64,000 bases of DNA from Crambe crambe. Lineage: Eukaryota > Porifera > Demospongiae > Poecilosclerida > Crambeidae. The stretch covers positions 4,398,480-4,462,479 of the forward strand of contig OZ004593.1 in NCBI GenBank assembly GCA_963924555.1, read 5' to 3'. Positions within the stretch are counted from its first letter, which is position 1. The number at the start of each line of letters is the position of its first letter. Under the pieces are notes generated by a model. That model had not been told where the DNA came from. It was given only the letters and a program-made list of their open reading frames with translations, and did no database searches. Positions 35,541-62,436 of the stretch are shown piece after piece. A program made the translations under genes and the position numbers.

Positions 35541-36527
35541 CTATAGAAATAATACCAGAATCATCTCTCTTTCTCCATCTTCCACCACTTCCTCTCCACA
35601 TAAATTACAATCCAAATCACTATCTTCTAAATCACTTTCTTCACTCCCAGTCCCAAACTGACACTTAGCTACCTTCAACGTTAACCCAGCCTCATTCAAC
35701 CTACCAAAAACTTCCTTAAGGTGATCCACATGCTCCTCCCATGACAACCACATCATCCAAATATGCTCCAGCAAACTCTCACAACCACGTAGCACCTGAT
35801 TCATGGTTCTCTGAAAAGTAGCTGGTGCACTATGTAAACCGAATGGCATCACCAGAAATTCATACAATCCGAACAGGGTTGTAAAAGCAGATTTCTCCCT
35901 GGCATCCTCCGACAATGGGATTTGCCAATATCCCTTGGGTAGGTCAAGGGTTGAGATGATCATTGCCGACCCTATGCTCTCCAAAACCTCCTCGATCCGG
36001 GGCATCGGGTATGCATCAAACTTCGTCCGTTGGTTCAGTTTTCTGTAGTCTACGCAGAACCTTACAGACCCGTCCATCTTCTCAACCAACACTATGGGCG
36101 AGGCCCGCGGACTTGTAGATGGTTGAATGACCTTTGCCTCCAGCATCTTTTCCAGCTCTTGCTTAACCATCACCCTCTTCGAGTAAGGTACTCGATATGG
36201 CTTCTGCCTCACTGGTACTGTGTCCTCAACATGAATTTGGTGGTGTGTTAAAGATGTCCTCCCTGGCGTGGAGCTAAAAATCGCAGGGAACTCCTCCATG
36301 ACCTCCAATAACTGCTGGCGTTCCTCAGATCCCAAGCCAGGTGTCTCAATCTCATCCATTGCCATCTGGACCTCACTCCCCCATAGGTACAGTCCACCAG
36401 CCTCTGGACCCTCAGCTCCCCTGGACTCCATCACCGCAAGCATTGCCTTCTCCGGGGCCGAGTTCCACTTCTTTAGCAGGTTGATATGATACACCTTTTT
36501 CTCTCGACGTCTTCCTGGGATTTCCAC
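35541..36527 (-). pseudogene. Ty3/gypsy reverse transcriptase, 3'-truncated and chimeric
   Basis: The 328-codon frame begins with YHINLLKKWN (a pol spacer motif), then PVRQKPYRVPYSKRVMVKQE, DGSVRFCVDYRKLNQ, ISTLDLPKGYWQIPLSEDA and LYEFLVMPFGLHSAPATFQR, all RT palm/finger motifs. The active-site YLDD is not in this frame: AYLDDVV is present one frame over, flanked by two compensating shifts, and the main frame resumes at WEEHVDHLKEVF. After KVAKCQFG (about 35,660) homology stops, and an acidic Cys-containing sequence from another element completes the frame. RNase H and integrase are lost. Confidence 0.8.
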
Positions 36528-37249
36528 CTCGTAGTCAACTTCTTTGCCTCAGATGGATCCTGTTCCAACTCCTCCCTCCTTAGCTCCAGGTTCCCCCCCC
36601 CCCCCCCCCCCCCCCCATGCACTTCCTTTTCTACCATATCACCCTGCCAATTCACCTCTGACCCTTCATTGAACAATTCTGCTATACCTTCACAATCATC
36701 TAATGCATCCCTAACCTCAACATTCTCATCTACAACCACTTGTTTACCCTCAGTTGGCTTTGAGTGGGTTGACCCCTCACCCACAAACTCATCCCCATCT
36801 ATCACTTTGTCATCATTAACCAGACCATCTATCCCCTTAGATACAGCTTGAACCACATTCCCAGCAGCTGTTTCCTCCTCAGCCACCCTTCTCTTTTTGG
36901 CTGCTCTGGTTTCAACTAATAACCCAAGTTCAACATCTTTCCATCCCTCCTGAACATCATATACATCAGTCCCCAAGACTACAGGTACTGGTAAGCTAGG
37001 TGCCACTACTGCCCTAACCTTTCTCTTGGTCCCCTCAAGCAGGAGGTCCACCTCTGTAGTGGGGTAATCCTCACTATCCCCATGAACACACATTATGGGG
37101 ACAGTATCTGTCTGATTCACCTTCAAGGGGCACACCCGATCTGCCCTAACCATAGTACAACTACTCCCTGTATCAATAAGTACCTGCACTGGCCTCCCGT
37201 CCAGTTGTCCACGCCTGAGGTACTTCTCACTCTCCTGATTCCATGCCAC
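36473..37249 (-). CDS. Ty3/gypsy aspartic protease and spacer
   Basis: The 258-codon frame starts just after gag. VQVLIDTGSSCTMVRAD holds the DTG active-site triad of a retropepsin, and VPVVLGTDVYDV is the second conserved segment. A long acidic linker follows, then a Gly run encoded by 24 consecutive C on the plus strand (36,593-36,616), then a short overlap with the RT frame. In the element it would cut the gag-pol polyprotein. The homopolymer is a likely slippage site and may explain the gag/pro/RT frame changes. Confidence 0.75.
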   Translation of the reverse strand: MAWNQESEKYLRRGQLDGRPVQVLIDTGSSCTMVRADRVCPLKVNQTDTVPIMCVHGDSEDYPTTEVDLLLEGTKRKVRAVVAPSLPVPVVLGTDVYDVQEGWKDVELGLLVETRAAKKRRVAEEETAAGNVVQAVSKGIDGLVNDDKVIDGDEFVGEGSTHSKPTEGKQVVVDENVEVRDALDDCEGIAELFNEGSEVNWQGDMVEKEVHGGGGGGGGNLELRREELEQDPSEAKKLTTRWKSQEDVERKRCIISTC

Positions 37250-37255
37250 TTCCGG

Positions 37256-38098
37256 TCAAGAGCCTCCAAATAGTGCGGTCTTGCCTGCTCCTTTCTGCTT
37301 TGAATCCTTTCGATTCGGACAGTTATACATGAGATGCCCCCACTGTTGACAGTGAAAACACTGCTTCTCTCCAAGTGCATTCACCTTCACCCGGTTGCCA
37401 CCACCAGAGAATCGGCTGGATCCATCCTTCTTCTCCCACGAGACTTTCTCCTTCTCCAGCTTCCCTGGCCGCTCCACTGGCGTCACTCCTCTCCCAGACT
37501 CCGCTCTACCCTCTGCGTTCCGAGCCTGAGCATAATTCTCTGCTATTATGATCAGCTCCCGCAGATCCAGCCCGGCTTCTTTTGTCCACTTGTCAAAGTG
37601 GTCGGTGATACGACAAATCCATTCCCGGTAAGATTCCTCCTTCTTCTTTGGGTCTTTACGGAACCTCACACGATGAGTCTCTTCATTAACATCGTATCTG
37701 TGCAGGATGGTCTTCTTTAACGTCTCATATTTTCCTGCTTCCTCGGGAAATAATGCAGTATAGGCAGCCATAGCCTTTCCAGTGAGCAACCCCGCAAGTT
37801 GAGTTGCCCAGACTTCCTTCGGCCACTTCTGTTGTTTTGCAATACGCTCGAACGTTGCAAGAAAGTTCTCTATGTCTTCCTTCGGATCGAGCTTCTGTAA
37901 AGTTGGCTTCGGAAGCTTAATCCTGGCGCCTTCTGCCTCGTCTCTCCTGCCTCTAAGACCCTCGATCTCCCGCCGATAATTCTCCATCTCCGTCCTCTGC
38001 CGTTCAAGCATTTCCTCCATCAGTCGCTGCTGTGCCTGTTGCTGAGCCCACTGTCGTTCCTGCTGCTGAACCATCAATCTCTGCTGTTCCTGAAGCAC
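37256..38098 (-). CDS. Ty3/gypsy Gag with zinc knuckle
   Basis: The 280-codon frame has a Gln-rich coiled-coil N-terminus (residues 1-45), a capsid-like segment with NFLATFERIAKQQKWPKEVW, LLTGKAMAAYTAL and YREWICRITDHFDKW (a retroviral-type/SCAN-like gag domain), and a single CCHC knuckle (CFHCQQWGHLMYNC, C-x2-C-x4-H-x4-C) near residue 257. It ends 6 bases before the protease frame. An open frame upstream (38,104-38,403, minus) lies between the PBS and gag and may be an N-terminal extension or leader. Confidence 0.8.
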   Translation of the reverse strand: MLQEQQRLMVQQQERQWAQQQAQQRLMEEMLERQRTEMENYRREIEGLRGRRDEAEGARIKLPKPTLQKLDPKEDIENFLATFERIAKQQKWPKEVWATQLAGLLTGKAMAAYTALFPEEAGKYETLKKTILHRYDVNEETHRVRFRKDPKKKEESYREWICRITDHFDKWTKEAGLDLRELIIIAENYAQARNAEGRAESGRGVTPVERPGKLEKEKVSWEKKDGSSRFSGGGNRVKVNALGEKQCFHCQQWGHLMYNCPNRKDSKQKGAGKTALFGGS

Positions 38099-38311
38099 AG
38101 CGATCAGCGACCCTGCATTAACTCCGCCTCCAAGCTCCCTGCCATCGGTGCCACCATCACCACCTTCCCCCAGCTGCAGCAGACTCCATATGAAGCTGCT
38201 CTGGCGAAGTCCTCTGACCCTCGGTAAACTCCTCTCTCTCCGATCTGTACATCCTCCCAGATCTGGTTAACGACATACACGCAGGTCTTGTCTGAAGTAA
38301 CTTGACAATAG

Positions 38312-38332: not shown

Positions 38333-38425
38333 TGTAACGTAGCGAGTAATAACTGTAATAGTTTATTTAACTGAGACAAAATCAAGAGACTAACATGAGT
38401 CAAAAGACAGAGATTAAGAGACTAA
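38333..38425 (-). mobile_element. 5' LTR of gypsy element 1, inner part (interrupted)
   Basis: The LTR ends ...TTACTCGCTACGTTACA on the minus strand next to the PBS. It is cut at 38,425 by the DNA transposon described below and resumes at 41,102-41,105 (TAATATGAAATGAGACTC). The outer LTR boundary is uncertain, possibly near 41,595 where GTTTACA occurs. No 3' LTR is in the window. Confidence 0.55.
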
Positions 38426-41101
38426 GGCCACTCCAAATAAATTTCCTGTTTCCCGTCCACTATTCCACACCTCCAGCATGAGGGAGGGAGGCCCATTTCC
38501 ATTATCCATTATTTCAGAGAGTATAAAAAGCCAAATATTCAATTCATGAAAGCACAAAAAATTGCATCAACAAGCACATTTATTTTTGGTATTTGGAATT
38601 TTGTCTTTCTGTTTGCAGTTATCACACTGTGGATAATACTTTGAAGAACTGGACCACGGCGTCTCCATGTCTCCTGCACAGTATATACAGATGTCTGTGT
38701 AGTTTGCAGAGTAATGAAGTCTTTCTATTGGTTCATTGCAATGCATTTTCTTGACATATACAAGACCTTTAAACTGAGCTGGTATATCAGCTTCCTGTAA
38801 ATCTGCACCACAGGAAAATGAGACATCATCAAACGATTGCTTTAGCCTACGAATCTCTCCTGGCTTCAACTTTCTTGTTGAGTAGACAAGTCGCCACATA
38901 CCACATTCATCGCACATAAGCATGGTGTTGCAGTTCAAAACATGCTGTATGCTAGGGTAAAAGGGGAGTCGCTTAGATGTGATCTTGTTCAGTGAAGGTC
39001 TGTGCTCTTCAGAGGTTTCTTTGCCAAAAACTTCACCAAAAGGCTTGTTAGGAAGAGAATGGAGCTTCTTGAAAATTTCAGGTGGAAGCCTAGGGGGTTT
39101 ACAAAGCTTGCAGTTCACATCCCCACATTTCCTGATTTCAAAACTGTAGTGCCGTTCATAGCAACAGTGCTTTAAGAAAGCTTGAATTCCCGGGGGAAGG
39201 TTCACACGTTTGATCTTATCAGTAGGGCCAAGATCAAAGGCAGGATCAATTTCCTTCAGGTGTGACCAAACATCACTGATTTCATGTTCTGAGGCAGGTG
39301 TATTGACTATAAATTTCTTCTTCTTTACTTCTAACCGTACAGTTACGTCAGATAAAGTTATTTTAACAGGGGCTACCGAGTCCAAGTGAGACTCCTTCAG
39401 TGACGGTTTTTTCTTTGCATGCTCCCTCAACTGGGCCATGCTGTTACATTTCAAAAGTTCTGCTTCCTCTTCATCATCCCGCCTACCTCAGGCAAGACCA
39501 ACTGATTGGAGGCCGAGATTAAGGACAGCCATGACCCTCTCAACAGGATTACGATATGAATTATGGGGGGCTGTCCTTGTAGCACACATATAGTCTAAAT
39601 CAAGCATTCTATGGTACTGTGGCATTTCAGAACGTAAAGATTCGATGACAGGTTGGCATGACTGGAGTGCAGACGATATATCAGTTGCATCAGAGAGCCA
39701 GAGCCAATGCAGACTACCAATATTACTCCCAGTTGAATATGTAGCTAGTACAGCTGAAGAATTCAGGCCATCTTTCAATACTTGGATCAAGTTGTAACGC
39801 CTCCTACGATCTCCAGGAAGAAGAGGGTCAAGATCAACTGGAACATTGGTGCCTGCTTCAAGAATAGCTTCAGTAAATTTCTCCAACACAGAAGGCACGG
39901 TGTGACGAGACTTGATAAAATCAACAGTGAGACCATTAGCTACCATTTGTGCTGGAGTATCTGAGTGATGAAGGGCAGTAATTCTAGCCCTCTTAGAGGT
40001 CAATAAATCAGCATATCTCGCCAATGCCTGAGCCAGTAGTTCAACTTCCCGCTTAACGGTACTCCAGCAAGATCGAGACCAGAAAGGTGATTGAAGGTTT
40101 CCAAACAAGCGTTGAGAATGGGATTTCAGAAGATCACAAGAGAGGGAACTACTTGAACGTTTCTTGTGTCTAGAAAGTTCGGGACGATTGAACCCTACAA
40201 ATTCAGAAAACACTGAGGGAACATGACAGCAACGTTCAGTTAATGTTCTGTGGTGGCCATCAATAAACCACAAGACATCTTGAAGAGTGTGAATAGCAGT
40301 TGAAGCAGTTCCATGCTCAACTTCACCTGATTTCCAAAAAAGACCTTCTTTCTCAATCCAATCCAGAATAACATTGTATAAGCTATCCTTTTTGTTCCTT
40401 ATTGGTGAAGTCTTGCTTGGACGAATACTGCGAGCCTGGGAACTAGCCATCAACACAGTAAAAGCATTTCTCGGAACGGACGACTGTTCAACTGCTGTGG
40501 CCTGCCCAACTGCTGCTTGTTTGGTCTCATAAAATTTCACATACTTCCCAAAAGCAGATACATCTACCACTTTCATTCCTATCAATGAAAAAAGCATGCA
40601 TTTATTAATAGTGGGTAATAATTACAAGCAGATCAGAGGTAGAGCTAGGTGCAGATCATTTTTTGTTTTGGTGGGCAATAATTAGAAGCAGCAAGTTCAC
40701 TCTGTTTTTATGCCTTTATATATCTACAGCATAAGACTAATAATATGCATGCTTCAGTACCTGGATTGCTGACAGGATCCAGAGAATCTTTGGATGAACC
40801 TACACGGACTTCTTGAATCTCATGGTTCATGGCCCTCTCAGGTCTCATCTTGTGGTAGAGCTGCTTTAGGGAGACTCGCTCATCCTCTAGTTGGTGTATT
40901 GTCCAAGGAACAACGGTACAATGGCAGCAGGTATCATAAACACAAAAGTTAATCAGAGCCATTTTGCAGCTGCTAGCCAGCCAATTAATGCCTATTGCGC
41001 ATGCGCGGAAGTGTTGAAGAGACCAATAATGGAAGTGGGTGCGGTGACAAGAACAGGATGCGGGCGGTGGACGGGAAACAGGACATTTATTTGGAGTGGC
41101 C
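38426..41101 (-). mobile_element. 2,676-bp DNA transposon with 35-bp TIRs and TAA duplication
   Basis: The left TIR GGCCACTCCAAATAAATTTC (38,426-38,460) and the right TIR at 41,067-41,101 match at 34 of 35 positions as inverted repeats. TAA flanks both sides (38,423-38,425 and 41,102-41,104). The interior holds one two-exon minus-strand gene. It sits inside the LTR of gypsy element 1. A TAA duplication and GG-start TIRs recall PIF/Harbinger, but the protein does not look like a Harbinger transposase. Confidence 0.85.
38567..40962 (-). CDS. transposase-like protein, two exons, one in-frame TGA
   Basis: Exon 1 (40,962-40,761) starts MALINFCVYDTCCHC and ends at a GTACTG donor in phase 1. Exon 2 (40,578-38,567) follows an ATTGATAG acceptor in matching phase, giving 738 codons including stop. 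Only one internal TGA (39,490-39,488) interrupts it; the codon context (GCC TGA GGT) fits a CGA to TGA change. Visible motifs: HTLQDVLWFIDGHHRTL, DYMCATRTAPHNSYRNPVER followed by VMAVLNLGLQSVGL (a D...N-P-V-E-R block that could carry catalytic acidic residues), CKLCKPPRLPPEIFKKL, and several C-x2-C pairs (CDECGMW, CIYCAGD, CDNCKQ) suggesting zinc binding. I recall similar uncharacterised cnidarian proteins but cannot name a superfamily. The open frame and TIRs indicate recent activity. Confidence 0.7.
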
Positions 41102-41104
41102 TAA

Positions 41105-46799: not shown

Positions 46800-47490
46800 C
46801 TTGATCTTTTACTTCAATTAGACATTTTACCATCAAAAATGTGCTCCGTGAAATTCTTCAGAAGTTTCTTCCCACATAAAGCAATCAACATCTTAGTGGC
46901 TTTAGTTGAAGAATTCATTTTGTGCACAAGTGAATGAATGTGCAAGTCATTGAACTCCACCATCTCATTGAATTGATAAAAACAGATTGAGTGAACTGAA
47001 TTCTGTCATGATCATCTTCATTATCCAGAAAATCTTGCACATCATCAATGTAGGCTCAGTCACAACTTCACTAGAATCATCTTCCTCCTTGCAAAATTCT
47101 TCTTTAAATGTTGCTTCCATTATCAGTTAAAACTACCATTATCTTGCTTGAATCAATGTCCCAATCATGAAGTACCTCATCAACACACTGTCGGATAGTG
47201 CCTGCAGTATGGAAAGAAGTGAGGTGCCAAACAGCCAAAGTTACTGTGTGCTGACGATGATCGCCTCTAGAAAAGAAATGGGCTGTAACACCAATTAGTT
47301 CCTTCTTTGACCAGATATCACAACAGAGACTAATCTTGTTTGCACTTTGTAAAGTTGCCGAAATTTTGGCCTTTAACTCAATGAAAACTTGTCTAATTCT
47401 TTGTTGATGTAGGATCCAATGCACGAAGAAAATCTTTAAACTCTAAATTTTCTACCACTGTGGAGCAGAATTAGTGTCAAAATGAATAAT
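46800..47490 (-). pseudogene. hAT transposase relic (ZBED-like)
   Basis: Leftward: VENLEFKDFLRALDP (47,450), then the open block 47,104-47,424 with ISLCCDIWSKKELIGVTAHF, TAGTIRQCVDEVLHDWDID and VVLTDNGSNI, which are hAT core motifs. The first catalytic Asp is the one in CCDIW and the second is in the LTDNGSN segment. Further left an acidic insert and, after shifts, a STFLMVKCLIEVKD-like motif correspond to the region between the second and last catalytic residues. The C-terminal hAT dimerisation domain is missing, and several stops occur. Confidence 0.7.
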
Positions 47491-47915: not shown

Positions 47916-48212
47916 TTACCATTTAGGTTCAAATCGTTCTACCGGTTTGCGATCACGTTTTGGATAAGTTTTTACTCGAGTTTCAGGTACAGGTTCAGGT
48001 GGAGGTTCTGGATCAACCACAGCTGGTGATGGTGAACTATCAACCACCGAATCATTAGCCGGTGAAGGAGTAGCCACTGAGGGATTAACTGGCAAAGAAG
48101 AGGGAATAACAGAGGGAATAACAATTTCGGGCTGATCTAGATGGCAGCGGTGTTCTCGACCATCCGACAGTCTCACTAACAATGAAACTGGACCAGTTTT
48201 CTTCTGGATCAC
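47916..48212 (-). CDS. gypsy element 2 integrase C-terminal tail
   Basis: The 98-codon frame starts VIQKKTGPVSLLVRLSDG (an SH3-like integrase C-terminal segment that follows the catalytic core), then a Pro/Val/Ser-rich linker and a basic end (YPKRDRKPVERFEP). It overlaps the core frame by a few bases, so a shift separates two parts of one original protein. It ends about 40 bp before the 3' LTR. Confidence 0.7.
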   Translation of the reverse strand: MIQKKTGPVSLLVRLSDGREHRCHLDQPEIVIPSVIPSSLPVNPSVATPSPANDSVVDSSPSPAVVDPEPPPEPVPETRVKTYPKRDRKPVERFEPKW

Positions 48213-48799
48213 TCCTGGTATCCACCGGTCGCCTCCATGATAGTTTCGAACAAATACATCATCTCCAATGTCTCCTTTGCCTTACGATCATGTTGTTTCT
48301 TCTGTTTTAGCTGGTTACTTTCGACTCGGCTTGCTAGATTTGGTTTTAACAGATCCAGCCGTGACCTCGGTTGTTTCCCTAGCAACAGTTCTGCTGGAGA
48401 AACTCCAGTTGTTGATTGTGGAGTTAGTCGATACGACATCAAGATCTGAGCCAATCTCTCATTCACACTTCCCTTTCGAATCTTCTTCAAGCCTTTCTTT
48501 ACAATTTGCACGGCGCGTTCTGCCAGTCCATTAGACGCTGGATGGTAAGGTGCAGATTTGTGATGTTTGATGCCGTTCCTCTGCAAAAATGATTCAAATT
48601 CGGTGCTGGTGAAGCAGGTACCATTATCAGTTATGATGCTTTCAGGAATTCCGAATCTTGCAAATTCAGTTCTCAACTCATCAATCACTGCACTGGACGT
48701 AGCATTTGTGGTATTGAAAGCTTCAATCCACTTGGAATGTGCATCAATGAGTATCAGGTACATCTTTCCCTGAACTGGACCAGCATAATCCAAATGCAA
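48209..48799 (-). pseudogene. gypsy element 2 integrase catalytic core
   Basis: HLDYAGPV and LILIDAHSKWIEAF hold the first Asp of the D-D-E triad region, IITDNGTCFTS the second Asp, and PASNGLAERAVQIVKKGL the Glu. SYRLTPQSTTGVSPAELLLG is the conserved post-core motif. The role is strand transfer of the cDNA into the genome. The core reads open over 196 codons but is shifted relative to the zinc-binding part and the C-terminal tail, so this copy is not functional. Confidence 0.8.
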
Positions 48800-49463
48800 T
48801 CTGGCCCAGGGGCGACCATGGTTGCAACGGAGCAGCTGGGGGTGTTGCTTGATTCACTTGACATTCGGTGCACCCACGTACTGTTTCCTCAATATCGGCT
48901 GAAATTCCTGGCCACCACACATACATTTGGGAGAGACTTTTCATCTTCGCTATCCCTGGGTGACCCTCGTGTAACTCAGTCAATACTGCTGCTCTACCAG
49001 GTTTCGGAATGACCACTCTGGTTCCCCACAGTATGCATCCATCATACAGAGACAGTTCTGTTCTCTTGGACAGGTAAGGAGTTAGCTCCGTAGAATCTTC
49101 TGTTGAATCTGGCCAGCCATAGCGGAGAAACTGTGCAATAGAAGCCAACTCAGTGTCTTTCTCAGTCCAGGCACGAATTTGAGCAGCTGTAACAGGCAAT
49201 TCGTCCAGATGTTCCATTAACAAGACCAACTCTGGGGGAGTCTGGTTGGTGACTGGTGCTACCTGAAGTGGCAGACGACTGAGGGCATCTGCATTCCCAT
49301 GAGCTTGTGTATTACGAACTTTCAAGGTGTATTCAAACATAGATAAATACAGGGCCCAACGGCGAATCCTGGCCGAAGCTTGCGGGGAAGTTGGCTTGTG
49401 CTCTCCTAACAAACTCAGGAGTGGTTTGTGGTCAGTAATCAATTCGAAAGGGTGACCAAACAA
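48744..49463 (-). pseudogene. gypsy element 2 RNase H end and integrase zinc-binding domain
   Basis: FGHPFELITDHKPLLSLLGE and RIRRWALYLSMFEYTLKVRN with HGNADALSRLP are the RNase H C-terminal part. HEGHPGIAKMKSL...YVWWPGISADI...CTECQ is the H-H-C-C zinc finger at the integrase start. The frame is shifted at both ends relative to its neighbours (49,463/49,485 and 48,744/48,799). Confidence 0.75.
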
Positions 49464-49484
49464 ATATGCATAAAACTTCTTTAT

Positions 49485-49890
49485 TCAAAAAACACATGAT
49501 AACCCTTCTTTCTCTAATTGTGAGTAGTTTCGTTCTGCTGGATTGAGCGTACGTGAGGCATAGCCAATGGGTTTCTCTGCTCCGTCCGGAAACTGATGTG
49601 CAAGTACAGCTCCGATGCCATATGCTGAAGCGTCACAAGCTAACACAAGAGGTAACTTGGAGTCAAAATGGACAAGTAGTGGTGATGACGTAAGCAGTCG
49701 TTTGGATTCTTGAAAACCCTTGTCCTGTTCAGCTTTCCACCTCCAAGTGGACTCTCTCTGAATCAACATTGGGGTGCAAGATGCCCTGTGTTGCCACAGC
49801 GATGACAGGTCATACCAGGATTACGGGGTTCGGAGTCCTTCCTGGAGACCTTGCTTACCGATTCCATCTTCACACTTGGAGCTGTCATTT
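49485..49890 (-). pseudogene. gypsy element 2 gag zinc knuckle fused to RNase H by deletion
   Basis: NPGMTCHRCGNTGHLAPQC (C-x2-C-x4-H-x4-C, about 49,770-49,830) is followed immediately by RESTWRWKAEQDKGFQESKR and LPLVLACDASAYGIGAVLAH, the start of the RNase H domain with its DAS motif. The protease, RT and connection domain that belong between them are gone. The junction near 49,768 has no extra bases that I can identify. Confidence 0.75.
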
Positions 49891-53225: not shown

Positions 53226-53400
53226 TGTGGTATTTGTGGTTATTTGTAATTTTTGTGTAAGTTACATTCTGTGTGCACGTGCTTAAAGGGACCTTTTAAT
53301 TTGATGTATCATTGGTTTTTCAGTCAGTCAGTAGTTGTCACCATTTGCTAAAAGTGTCTTGAACTATTACTAATTCTGGCGCTGGTGCTGCGATACCACA
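53226..53400 (+). repeat. 5' LTR of gypsy element 3
   Basis: 175 bp bounded by TGTGGTAT and ATACCACA, an 8-bp terminal inverted repeat typical of LTRs. It is followed after five bases by TGGCGACGAGG (53,406-53,416), the same PBS-like sequence as in element 2. No 3' LTR was found. Confidence 0.75.
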
Positions 53401-53493
53401 TTAACTGGCGACGAGGTACGGGATCAGCTATATAGATGGCTACTTGGATCAATCGGACCGTATGATGCAGACAAGGAGGAATGGCCGCAATAT

Positions 53494-54726
53494 GTGGAGC
53501 GGTTAAGTTTTTTCTTCGAGGCCAATGGGATCACTGGGGCAGACAAAAAGAAAGTATCGTTTTTGACGTTGATCGGACGGCCCACTTTCAAGTTACTCCG
53601 GAGTCTTCTGCATCCGAACAAACCGGCAGATAAGACCTTCGATGAACTGACTCAGATACTTACCGATCACTACAAACCGGCACCATCGGAGATAGTGCAG
53701 CGTTTCAAATTCCACAGCAGATTTAGGAAACAAGGCGAGTCCGTAGCTACCTATGTATCGGAACTCAGGGCCTTAGCCGAGTATTGTAATTTCGGGGAAA
53801 CCCTCCAAGATATGCTTCGGGATAGACTAGTTTGTGGCATAAACGATGATAGAATACAAGGAAGGCTGCTATCTGAACCCAAGTTGAAGTATGATAAAGC
53901 TGTAGAGCTAGCTACTACCCTGGAGACAGCTGCACACAATCTCAAAGAACTGACCGCTGGTCGCTTGGGCAACAGACAAGACAGGGAGGGGCTTGAAAAA
54001 CCCGAAAGTGTACACAGGATTCAGGACAAGGGCAGATCAAAGGAAATAGTAGCTGCATGTTACAGGTGTGGAAATCCTGACCACAAAGCAGACAAATGCA
54101 AGTTTAGAGATGCCACTTGTCACTTGTGTGGAAAGAAGGGGCATCTGAAGAAAGTGTACCGAAGTAAGAAGAGTATGCCCAAGAAGAAAAAGCCAGCTCC
54201 TCCACAACCAGTACGCCGAGTACAAGAGGACGAAGAGACTGAAGATGAATACCCATTATACCACTTACACTCTGCAAGTCCAGATCAACCCATTGAAATT
54301 TCACTCAATGTGGGTGGATGTACCCTCTCCATGGAGTTGGATACCGGAGCGGCACTCTCATTGGTCTCCGAAATGTTGTTCAAGGAGATGTGGCCAGACC
54401 GGACAGTTTCAGAATCCACAGTAACACTCTCCTCCTACTCCGGGGAAGACATACCTGTGCTGGAAAGTGTTGAGATGGAGGTGAGATATAAAGATCAAAG
54501 GGCTAAGTTACCCCTACTGATAGTAAAAGGGGCTGGACCTAGTTTATTGGGAAGGAACTGGTTGGGAAGCCTTAAACTACACTGGAATGAGATTCACTGT
54601 ATGCATAGTGGTGGGTTACAGCAAATATTGCTGAAGTATGACTCTGTTCTCCAAGATGGGTTAGGTACCCTCCAGGGACCCAAGGCCACTATATCCGTTG
54701 ATGCTGGAGCTTGCCCACGCTTCTAG
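53494..54726 (+). CDS. gypsy element 3 Gag-protease
   Basis: Open frame of 410 codons; the same frame is open back to about 53,400 and includes IGPYDADKEEWPQYVERL, so the true start is upstream, perhaps the ATG at 53,434 in a shifted frame. Domains: capsid (FKFHSRFRKQGESVATYVSE, RDRLVCGINDDRIQGRLLSE), two zinc knuckles (CYRCGNPDHKADKC intact; CHLCGKKGHLKKVY with the final Cys changed to Tyr), then a retropepsin with SMELDTGAALSLVS and PSLLGRNWLGSL. It overlaps the RT frame by 16 bases. Confidence 0.8.
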   Translation: MERLSFFFEANGITGADKKKVSFLTLIGRPTFKLLRSLLHPNKPADKTFDELTQILTDHYKPAPSEIVQRFKFHSRFRKQGESVATYVSELRALAEYCNFGETLQDMLRDRLVCGINDDRIQGRLLSEPKLKYDKAVELATTLETAAHNLKELTAGRLGNRQDREGLEKPESVHRIQDKGRSKEIVAACYRCGNPDHKADKCKFRDATCHLCGKKGHLKKVYRSKKSMPKKKKPAPPQPVRRVQEDEETEDEYPLYHLHSASPDQPIEISLNVGGCTLSMELDTGAALSLVSEMLFKEMWPDRTVSESTVTLSSYSGEDIPVLESVEMEVRYKDQRAKLPLLIVKGAGPSLLGRNWLGSLKLHWNEIHCMHSGGLQQILLKYDSVLQDGLGTLQGPKATISVDAGACPRF

Positions 54727-55931
54727 AACCCGTACAGTTAGCCAATTGGGCCTCACCAATTGTTGCCGTGTTGAAAAGTGATCAAAAGTCAGTGAGAATC
54801 TGTGGAGATTTCAAACAGACAGTTAATCCGGTATCCAAGCTGGACTGCTATCCTATACCAAAAGTGGAGGATCTTTTTGCTAGACTGGCAGGGGGAAAGT
54901 CCTTCACCAAGCTTGATCTTAGTCAAGCCTACCAGCAGCTACCCCTGGATGATCAGTTGAAGCAATACGCTGTGATCAACACACCAAAAGGATTATTCCG
55001 TTACACCCGGCTCCCCTATGGAATATCATCTGCACCAGGGATCTTCCAACGAGTAATGGACACAATTCTAAATGGAATCCCAGGAGTTGTGGTTTACTTG
55101 GACGACATTCTAGTCACTGGAGCCACAGCCCAGGACCACTTGAAGTCATTGGAAGAGGTCCTTAAGAGGCTGGAAAAAGCAGGCCTCCGGGCCAAGAAAA
55201 AAAAATGCCAGTTTATGGCTCCATCAGTGACATATCTTGGTCATCTGATTGACTCGGAAGGCCTACATCCGTTACCGGAGAAAGTGAAAGCAGTGGAAGC
55301 AGCACCACAGCCACAAAATGTACATCAGTTGAAGTCCTATCTAGGCTTGCTTACTTATTACAGTAAATTCCTCCCGAATATGTCAACCGTTTTAGCTCCA
55401 CTTTATCGCCTGCTAAGGAGTGATGTAACCTGGGAGTGGAATGCCAAGGAGGAATCGGCCTTCAAAGCTTCAAAGGACCTCCTCACATCTGTGGGCTATG
55501 CCTCCCGTTCGCTTTCCAAGGCTGAAAGAAATTATTCACAGCTGGAACGGGAGGGTCTTGCCTGTGTTTTTGGGATCAAACGATTCCGCCAGTACTTATT
55601 TGGACACCCTTTTGATCTCATCACGGATCACAAACCACTTCTCGCACTACTCAATCAGCACAAGCCAACGTCATCCCAAGCATCCGGAAGGATTCGCCGT
55701 TGGTCACTATTCTTATCTTCCTATGAATATACCATCCAATTCCGGAAGACAGGGGCACATGCTAATGCAGACGCATTGAGCCGGCTGCCGTTGCCTGAAG
55801 CACCTGCGGAAGTCCCTGAGCCACCTGAAGTAGTCCTCCTCATGGATCACCTAAGCGAGTCCCCAGTAACAGCATGTATGTATGTATCTAAATGCGATTC
55901 TACTACTATAACAGTGAATAGTATTTCTTAA
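54711..55931 (+). CDS. gypsy element 3 RT and partial RNase H
   Basis: 406 codons. RT motifs in order: NWASPIVAVLKSDQKSVRIC, FTKLDLSQAYQQLPLDD, LFRYTRLPYGISSAPGIFQR, VVYLDDILVTG (intact YLDD) and TYLGHLIDSEGLHP, then the connection YLGLLTYYSKFLPN. RNase H lacks its first catalytic block: FKASKDLLTS jumps straight to VGYASRSLSKAERNYSQLE, then FDLITDHKPLLALLNQHKP and ANADALSRLP. The deletion keeps the frame. The last 18 codons lie beyond the element's homology. Confidence 0.8.
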   Translation: MPTLLEPVQLANWASPIVAVLKSDQKSVRICGDFKQTVNPVSKLDCYPIPKVEDLFARLAGGKSFTKLDLSQAYQQLPLDDQLKQYAVINTPKGLFRYTRLPYGISSAPGIFQRVMDTILNGIPGVVVYLDDILVTGATAQDHLKSLEEVLKRLEKAGLRAKKKKCQFMAPSVTYLGHLIDSEGLHPLPEKVKAVEAAPQPQNVHQLKSYLGLLTYYSKFLPNMSTVLAPLYRLLRSDVTWEWNAKEESAFKASKDLLTSVGYASRSLSKAERNYSQLEREGLACVFGIKRFRQYLFGHPFDLITDHKPLLALLNQHKPTSSQASGRIRRWSLFLSSYEYTIQFRKTGAHANADALSRLPLPEAPAEVPEPPEVVLLMDHLSESPVTACMYVSKCDSTTITVNSIS

Positions 55932-58840: not shown

Positions 58841-59229
58841 AGCTGCTAGCTAAAAGTCAAAACATCAAGTGGGCATGGTTTGATATAGCCTTGAACCCAG
58901 CCTCTCTTTTCCTTTTCTTGGGGGCGGGGGAAAAAGAGAGCCTGGTATCCACTGTTTGCGCATGCGCCAGTTTTTCCCAGAAATCTGGGAAACAGGATAT
59001 GACTCGGATATTTCCGCTACACGATCGTCATAATTAATGGGCGCAGTCACACAACTAGTACAATGCTGCATAGTTTTACTCTTGCTCCTGCTGCTCTTCG
59101 TTTCTCCTTGGAGAAACTTGGCATTCCTGAAGAAGGAACAACACACACTGCTGTCAAGGCAGTCTACGATGGCTTCAATGCATTGCATATGGTCGCAGTG
59201 AAGATCAAAGGGCCAAGTTCATAGCAGAT

Positions 59230-59748
59230 ATGTCCATATTCGATCCACACATGTTTTTGTGGGTAGACGAGTCAGGGTTCAGGCAGAGGAATTCTATGGG
59301 TATAGTTTGAGAGGCATGCGTGCTGAGGACCACCAATTGAAGTTAGGGAGGACGTCCATTAATGCTATAGCAATCATGTCACATGAAGGAGTTAATGACC
59401 TCGTGAATGGTGACACTTTTGAAAAATTTGTAACCACATGTCTCCTCCCACAACTGATGCCCTTCAATGGTGTCAACAACCACTCTATTGTTGTTATGGA
59501 TAACTGCTCTGTTCACCATCTAGAGCGAGTTACACAAATGATCCATAGCACATAAGTTTCTACCCACATACAGTCCAGACCTAAATCCTATTGAACTTGT
59601 CTTTTCAAAAGTTAAAGCATTCATTAAAGCCAACTATGTCATTGCCCAATCTACCTCATTCCCTTGTCTGATAGTGTCCTTGGCATTTAACACTATTAGT
59701 CAGGAGGATTGTATACACTACATACAACATTCAGGATACACATTGTGA
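59230..59748 (+). pseudogene. Tc1/IS630-like (DDE_3) transposase relic
   Basis: MSIFDPHMFLWVDESGFRQR carries the first catalytic Asp. After a shift the frame from 59,259 gives FYGYSLRGMRAEDHQL, then INAIAIMSHEGVNDLVNGDT, LLPQLMPFNGVNNHSIVVMD and NCSVHHLERV (second Asp). After another shift, KFLPTYSPDLNPIELVFSKV supplies the final Glu in the NPIE motif, and the frame ends at a TGA at 59,746-59,748. The D-D-E spacing matches DDE_3 transposases. The N-terminal HTH is missing and two frameshifts are present. Upstream, 59,080-59,210 may contain decayed N-terminal sequence. Confidence 0.75.
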
Positions 59749-61282: not shown

Positions 61283-61918
61283 ATATATTGAGAGTCTGAG
61301 TGAGGTTAGAAATAATATTATTACTAAATGCTATTTAAGTTGATCACCTACTACTCTAGAATTCTTCTGAATCGTCTCACATTAGTGATTCAGAGAGTGA
61401 AGAACAAGGAAATAGAGGTTAGTATTATGACACGACATCATTTTGTATTGTGGTCTTATAATATTGAAATAAGTGTGGTTTTAATGTGGGCTACCAAGGG
61501 GGTCAAAGGTCAAGTATATGCCACAGTCACTACCCGTACGTTTATTGTAGGATTTGATGGAAATGTTTCCTTCAGTCGGAAGACCACGTATAGCTGCTAT
61601 TGTTGCACAGGGGGTTACGGTGGAGGGAGCTGTTGATATCCTCCTTAAACCAAGTAACACCATTACATTGTTGAAGGAGCAGCGAGAGATGATCATGACA
61701 GATTCGTACATTGAACTGGAAATGTCACGAGCGTGTATTGCGAACAAAGCGAAGGCTTTTTATAAGTCTTGCCTCCATAGCCCATCGCAACTGAGGAAGT
61801 CATTACACATCCAGTTCAGGGGGGAACCAGGGATAGATGCTGGGGCACTGAAGAACGATTTTTTCATTGGCTATTTTAGGTGTGTAAAAGATGAACTTTT
61901 TGAAGGTGCCCCCAATCG

Positions 61919-62436
61919 GCTAACTCAAGTCTGTGCGAGAAACACCAAGCCCAAAAGAGCCAAGGGAACATAGACTGTAATTTCTCTTTAACACCATTAT
62001 GACAACCAATGTTGACAGAGGCCCCATCCGTACCCCCACCTACTCTGAAGATAATATCCACATCATTATCTTCATCTTGGTGAATATCAATACAAAGCCT
62101 GCTCAATGCTTCTTGCAAACAATCTACTAAACCCTCAGCTGTGCTATGCTGAGGACTAACAACTGCTAAATAGCGTGTAGCAGATCTAATTTGGTGAGCA
62201 ACCTCATCTTTTTCACAGTAAACTACGAAAATTACCTCCTGTTCAAGGTTGTCAGCATCAGTGGATCCATCCATGAGAAAGCTAACAAACTTGACGCGGG
62301 CAAGACCATGCAAGAAAAGCTTTCTTTGAGCCTCAGCAATGAAGTGAGTAAAAACTTTGGCAGAATCAGTTGTCTTGTAGGAGTGTCCTAGATGCACTCC
62401 ATGGTGCTCTGACAAGGCATGAAAAGTTGGATACAC
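61919..62436 (-). pseudogene. DUF4371/hAT-like transposase fragment
   Basis: The minus frame from 62,436 reads HLGHSYKTTDSAKVFTHFIA, ARVKFVSFLMDGSTDADNLE (catalytic Asp in the DGSTD motif), a long linker, VGGGTDGASVNIGCHNGVKE and MFPWLFWAWCFSHRLELA. These are the DUF4371 and hAT-like core motifs of ZNF862/ZMYM-related transposases. After HRLELA (about 61,919) the frame enters reversed HECT exon sequence, giving a sharp junction. The C-terminal half is absent. One long open frame indicates a fairly young copy. Confidence 0.7.

Follow-up and report, generated by a model that had tools for sequence, protein, structure and literature searches.

The window, a 64-kb stretch of Crambe crambe DNA, contains a 2676-bp transposon (38426-41101) that is inserted inside the LTR of a Gypsy-like retrotransposon and carries a two-exon transposase gene on the minus strand. 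The name Gypsy for the host element is presumptive and was chosen from the appearance of its open reading frames. The features of the locus are as follows.

35541-38266, minus strand: gag-pol frames of the Gypsy-like retrotransposon (open reading frames)
38333..38425, minus strand: inner end of the Gypsy-like LTR that hosts the transposon; the LTR resumes at 41102
38423..38425, no strand: left target site duplication, TAA (sequence; empty sites with a single TAA in loci L072, L073 and L074)
38426..38460, plus strand: left TIR, 35 bp, starting with GGCCACTCCAAATAAAT (sequence)
38567..40579, minus strand: exon 2, encoding the N-terminal part, the Glu block and the cysteine-rich C-terminus (open reading frame and translation)
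38570..39484, minus strand: C-terminal region with conserved C-x2-C pairs and a weak resemblance to CW-type zinc fingers (alignment; Pfam below cut-off)
39039..39050, minus strand: approximate position of a second small in-frame gap, 8-11 aa relative to six relatives (alignments)
39488..39490, minus strand: in-frame TGA stop, residue 431 (translation)
39605..39613, minus strand: approximate junction of an in-frame internal deletion of ~327 aa that removes DDKH and TDGG (pairwise alignment to full-length relatives; core HMM; core search)
40580..40760, minus strand: intron, GT-AG (absent from the C20 relative)
40761..40962, minus strand: exon 1 of the transposase gene (N-terminus aligns with intronless relatives on C3 and C20)
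41067..41101, minus strand: right TIR, 34/35 identical to the left TIR (sequence)
41102..41104, no strand: right target site duplication, TAA (sequence; empty sites with a single TAA)

Insertion site and gene of the window copy

An earlier reading of the same DNA, made from the sequence only, had described 35-bp TIRs with 34 of 35 positions identical and a TAA on both sides. The TIRs are present at 38426-38460 and 41067-41101, and comparison with empty sites in three LTR loci confirms the TAA at 38423-38425 and 41102-41104 as a target site duplication. Specifically, a genome search with the right flank yields 28 matches, counting the window and its duplicate, and four other loci (L071-L074) were used for the comparison. 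Three of the four, L072, L073 and L074, match both flanks with a single TAA at the junction, while L071 matches only the more distal part of the flank. Because the loci that read through the site carry a single TAA, the insertion duplicated TAA exactly; insertion of the transposon with TAA duplication is thus proven. Since the transposon sits in an LTR for which empty sites exist elsewhere, it is younger than the host LTR copy.

Contig C14 accounts for 8 of the 28 matches to the LTR flank. The window also holds further stretches with gag-pol in several frames, which we take to be Gypsy-like, at 48209-49820 (minus strand) and 53374-55931 (plus strand). Open reading frames at 59202-59555 (plus strand), 61876-62436 (minus strand) and 47104-47442 (minus strand) look like a Tc1/mariner-type piece (VVMDNCSVHH) and hAT-type or similar pieces, names that we likewise assign presumptively.

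The two-exon gene with one TGA that had been proposed is found on the minus strand and encodes a protein of 737 residues, the in-frame TGA counted in. The predicted splice is supported by a 1070-codon relative on C20 that has no intron and aligns straight across the junction. The conserved block singled out by the sequence-only reading, RTAPHNSYRNPVER, is present in the window protein and corresponds to the remaining third catalytic block, which carries the Glu of the catalytic core. Several of the C-terminal C-x2-C pairs noted in that reading are conserved among relatives. The C-terminal region resembles a CW-type zinc finger (zf-CW), with an E-value of up to 1 in 8 of 18 members and of 0.39 in the window copy, and the best match reaches 27.1 bits against a cut-off of 27.5; as the matches stay below cut-off, the name CW-type zinc finger serves as a lead only. 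A single-sequence AlphaFold2 prediction for the window protein was useless (mean pLDDT 34), and no fold search was based on it.

An internal deletion in the catalytic core

A search of the sponge's own genome with both halves of the window protein finds many relatives, several of them single open frames of ~1000-1110 codons. The relatives match up to residue 326 of the first half, after which ~1 kb follows before the match resumes, and pairwise alignment puts the in-frame loss in the window protein at ~327 aa relative to the C10 relative and 328 aa relative to the C3 relative. Consistent with these alignments, a catalytic-core HMM of 366 positions is matched in the window copy and its duplicate only at positions 328-366, and in a search with a 368-aa core both match only residues 333-368, i.e. 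36 of the 368. By comparison, among the places listed, 27 cover at least 340 of the 368 core residues, and 24 of these 27 are stop-free.

Two conserved acidic blocks out of three, DDKH and TDGG, are among the sequences absent from the window copy, which lacks the complete DDE catalytic core that marks an autonomous transposon. The element had been called nearly intact; this description does not hold, as the protein has lost ~327 aa, which include most of the catalytic core, in addition to the gap of 8-11 aa and the TGA. Judged from its reading frame, the window copy is a non-autonomous internal-deletion derivative, and its predicted product cannot catalyse transposition. Its nearest relatives share ~47-57% protein identity with it (matches longer than 90 aa), and no full-length partner from the same subfamily turned up in the own-genome protein searches. 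At the DNA level the nearest intact relatives have diverged too far for microhomology at the deletion to be defined.

Internally deleted P-element products are known to act as regulators, and the shortened protein could in principle have been kept in a similar role, binding DNA without cutting it. The deletion is in frame and the N- and C-terminal parts are retained, which would fit such a role, but the in-frame TGA ends the protein at residue 431 and there is a single full-length locus besides its duplicate; we regard a retained regulator as extremely improbable.

Ends, copies and mobility of the family

Overlapping fetched loci were merged into 41 regions, which were scanned for TIRs beside any identical 3-bp flanks. 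TIR pairs that start with GGCC are found in 23 of the 41 regions, the window copy and its duplicate included, and every one of the 23 pairs is bordered by a TAA or TTA duplication (together, TWA); eight TIR-like pairs among the rows listed that do not start with GGCC were set aside. Full-length family elements span 3.5-4.1 kb and encode a transposase of ~1000-1110 aa. When 3 mismatches or fewer are allowed, a degenerate TIR pattern matches 126 forward and 135 reverse places in the genome, so that other elements with similar TIRs, which the sequence-only reading had asked for, are present; the reversed control pattern matches 0 places. Among the matches listed, TAA or TTA precedes 90 of 100 TIR ends, and 25 TIR pairs can be formed within 6 kb, with identical flanks (all TAA or TTA) in 20 and unequal flanks in 5.

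Over 3.5 kb, the copies on contigs C5, C6 and C8 share 99.0-99.5% identity; each has TTA on both sides, and their flanks differ. In addition, a 1.48-kb derivative of the C20 type, ~2.2 kb shorter, occupies two sites, each with its own TAA duplication, and its two copies are 98% identical, indicating that the deleted form was itself mobilised. A derivative on C5 of the C11 type represents another internal deletion. Internal deletions thus recur in the family.

The only full-length match of the window copy is its duplicate (C16:4311749-4317479, locus L002), which lies 123,630 bases upstream and differs by 2 mismatches in 5731 bases, flanks included. Because the near-identity extends through the flanks, the pair reflects a segmental or assembly duplication rather than two insertions. 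The earlier proposal of recent activity thus applies to the family, with its 99% identical copies at three sites, but not to the window copy, which represents one insertion plus a duplicate and no burst. A second pair of family copies, at C16:4351432 and C16:4489873, is separated by ~138.4 kb; a large block may have been duplicated with an internal length change, or the assembly may contain two haplotypes.

Two further observations concern the wider genome. A family of MITEs of ~300-380 bp is present (e.g. C1:3753840-3754208 and C10:5685531-5685884); their ends read GGCCAAACCAATTAAATTTCCTGTTT, their duplications are mostly TWA, and they are perhaps mobilised by this transposase family. On contig C3 there are many pieces of the family core that are short or carry stops, perhaps as part of a repeat-rich stretch.

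Relationship to ISAzo13 and other named systems

Domain and database searches return no named relative of the family. In particular, no Pfam model passes cut-off for the window protein, for 6 family cores, for the N-terminal parts of five relatives or for the C-terminal parts. The ISAzo13 model PF07592 has no match among the 6 family cores, and its one weak match in the own genome (E 0.042) lies away from the family. Sequence searches of the PDB give chance-level matches or none, the NCBIfam search stays at chance level, two scans each of IMG/VR and GTDB contigs find no family relatives, and tblastn of one core against plasmids gives chance-level matches (E 0.6 or worse among the matches listed).

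The order of the core motifs, which we took to be that of ISAzo13 transposases, provided the lead for a profile comparison. The ISAzo13 transposases were taken from plasmids. A broken ISAzo13 copy (L084) was left out before the comparison with 8 sequences, and L104, whose longest ORF is an RHS protein, was removed after the comparison with 16 sequences, leaving 15 ISAzo13 proteins (two identical, 14 distinct). For the family, 21 cores were found and 19 used, the near-identical C6 and C8 cores being left out of the 16- and 15-sequence comparisons.

With 8 cores against 8 ISAzo13 sequences, hhalign gives Prob 91.3 and P 9.3e-7 over 169 columns, and the alignment places DDKH on DTKK, GDHDF on VHDF, TDGGPDH on TADAGGSNG and NPVER on NKIEH; controls of 8 column shuffles and a reversed profile reach at most 0.5. 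Subsets of 5 and 3 ISAzo13 sequences give Prob of only 10.9 and 6.0. With 16 ISAzo13 sequences, one of them the wrong ORF, Prob is 79.1 for 19 cores and 71.1 for 8 cores (30 shuffles, all at or below 0.6). With the cleaned set of 15 proteins, Prob is 93.6 (P 2.2e-7) for 19 cores and 90.3 for 8 cores, the best of 50 shuffles reaching 3.3 and the aligned length being 165-187 columns. The D, D, E triad is in register between family cores and ISAzo13 in the 8- and 16-sequence alignments. Across the 19 cores, the first Asp is conserved in 19 of 19, the second in 17 of the 18 that reach the position, and the Glu in 17 of 17. The second Asp and the Glu lie 42 residues apart in all 15 ISAzo13 proteins and 43 residues apart in 8 aligned family cores. 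By contrast, hhalign against three IS630-type, five IS5-type and two integrase-type sequences gives Prob 0.1-0.2, a silence that counts for less than the ISAzo13 signal because these sets are small.

The element ends in bacteria agree with the profile match. A first scan of 15 bacterial ISAzo13 loci, allowing any identical 3-bp flank, yields 5 candidates of 1312-1331 bp, all with TAA or TTA flanks and G-starting TIRs. A second scan covered 14 of the earlier places and one new copy, with longer flanks for seven places. It yields candidates in 7 of its 15 loci, all with TAA or TTA followed by G (T[A/T]A|G), and no such ends in the other 8. Among 300 shuffled loci, 11 have any candidate and 0 have one of the TAA/TTA-plus-G kind. 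A looser scan with no flank rule finds TAA beside one end of L106 and TTA beside the other; in L081 and L113, shifting the ends inwards would permit equal flanks of 5 or 7 bp. The TWA duplication and G-starting TIRs are thus common to bacterial ISAzo13 and the sponge family.

The likeness thus extends over the D-x-K...VG, HDF, D-x-G-G/P and HS/TS-x-x-N-x-[IV]-E blocks in the same order, the D-E spacing (42 versus 43), the TAA or TTA duplication and the G-starting TIRs. The bacterial elements differ in being 1.3-1.8 kb long where ends were found, against 3.5-4.1 kb in the family, and their complete annotated enzymes measure ~400-700 aa, against ~1000-1110 aa; the family also has introns in some copies and a cysteine-rich C-terminus. 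Judged by these profiles, the family is a divergent eukaryotic relative of ISAzo13. The superfamily had been called unassigned, which is accurate insofar as no Pfam model passes cut-off, but the profile match, together with the TWA duplication that both groups leave, links the family with ISAzo13.

A different view is that the family forms a superfamily in its own right, not especially close to ISAzo13, and that general DDE features alone account for the match. The absence of Pfam matches over cut-off, of notable NCBIfam or PDB matches and of relatives in the IMG/VR and GTDB contigs would fit such a view. However, of four DDE sets only ISAzo13 gives a signal (165-187 columns), the element ends agree with ISAzo13, and ISAzo13 against IS630, two groups that the literature places near each other through Zator, scores lower as a yardstick (Prob 69) than the family against ISAzo13. 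We therefore consider a separate superfamily unlikely.

The IS630-Tc1-mariner group, including Fot/pogo, was also weighed. The NP-[IV]-E block of Tc1 resembles the Glu block of the family, and ISAzo13 itself is distantly linked to IS630. TAA duplications occur in most Fot elements (PMC7386202). The family differs in giving no profile signal with three IS630-type transposases and no Pfam match in 6 cores; membership in this group was rejected, as the profiles and Pfam found no DDE_3-type core. The Tc1/IS630 model PF13358 also matches part of the cyanobacterial ISAzo13-like transposases L081, L082 and L083, and passes its cut-off in two of the three, in line with the ISAzo13-IS630 link.

PIF/Harbinger (PHIS) elements have TWA duplications and TIRs that usually start with A or G (PMC4482050), and the TWA duplication and G-starting TIRs of the family could accordingly point to a divergent PHIS element. 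This end type does not single out PHIS, because bacterial ISAzo13 leaves the same TWA duplication. Moreover, PHIS has a separate transposase family: the 46 genome matches of PF13359 (DDE_Tnp_4) fall on none of the 27 listed core places (compared by eye), and the set of five IS5-type transposases gives Prob 0.2, no signal for PHIS. PHIS elements also usually have two ORFs, the second with a Myb/SANT domain, whereas the window element encodes one long protein; inspection of its ORFs by eye showed no second large gene. A PHIS origin is thus very unlikely, and the earlier judgement that the protein is not a Harbinger transposase is borne out by the PF13359 and IS5-type profile tests.

Among eukaryotic transposons, Zator is the literature counterpart of ISAzo13. 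Kojima and Bao describe Zator as resembling ISAzo13, both with 3-bp duplications (PMC10045372), and Zator is paired with ISAzo13 as its eukaryotic partner in PMC5718144. The family likewise makes the 3-bp target site duplication that characterises ISAzo13 and Zator; its putative likeness to Zator, in 3-bp duplications and ISAzo13 kinship, follows the literature description of Zator. Taken together, the window element is very probably an internally deleted, non-autonomous member of a eukaryotic family of DDE cut-and-paste transposons that is related to bacterial ISAzo13. Because Zator is the counterpart of ISAzo13, the family most likely belongs to the Zator lineage or is its sister. It is possible, though doubtful, that the family is instead a distinct eukaryotic ISAzo13-derived lineage that ranks as a superfamily separate from Zator; its enlarged transposase of ~1000-1110 aa would then combine N-terminal domains that Pfam does not recognise with a multi-zinc C-terminus whose CW-like finger might be a chromatin reader that steers integration.

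The intact enzyme would adopt an RNase H fold with a DD43E triad made up of two Asp residues, one in DDKH and one in TDGG, and the Glu in NPVER, would cut at both TIRs, and would insert at TWA with a 3-bp stagger. The window copy would move only with the enzyme of a relative, if its TIRs are still recognised.

The family is not described in the titles and abstract openings of the literature searched, a scope that excludes subscription papers and Repbase, nor in the available parts of PMC12730594, PMC10045372, PMC7386202, PMC8533490, PMC5718144 and PMC4482050; this absence of a description does not show that the family is unpublished. Elements with a TWA duplication and GGCC ends are readily labelled Harbinger from their ends alone, and the enzyme here disagrees with such a label. 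The family is well conserved and recently mobile, with no Pfam model that recognises it, and its genes are therefore likely to be annotated as unknown proteins.
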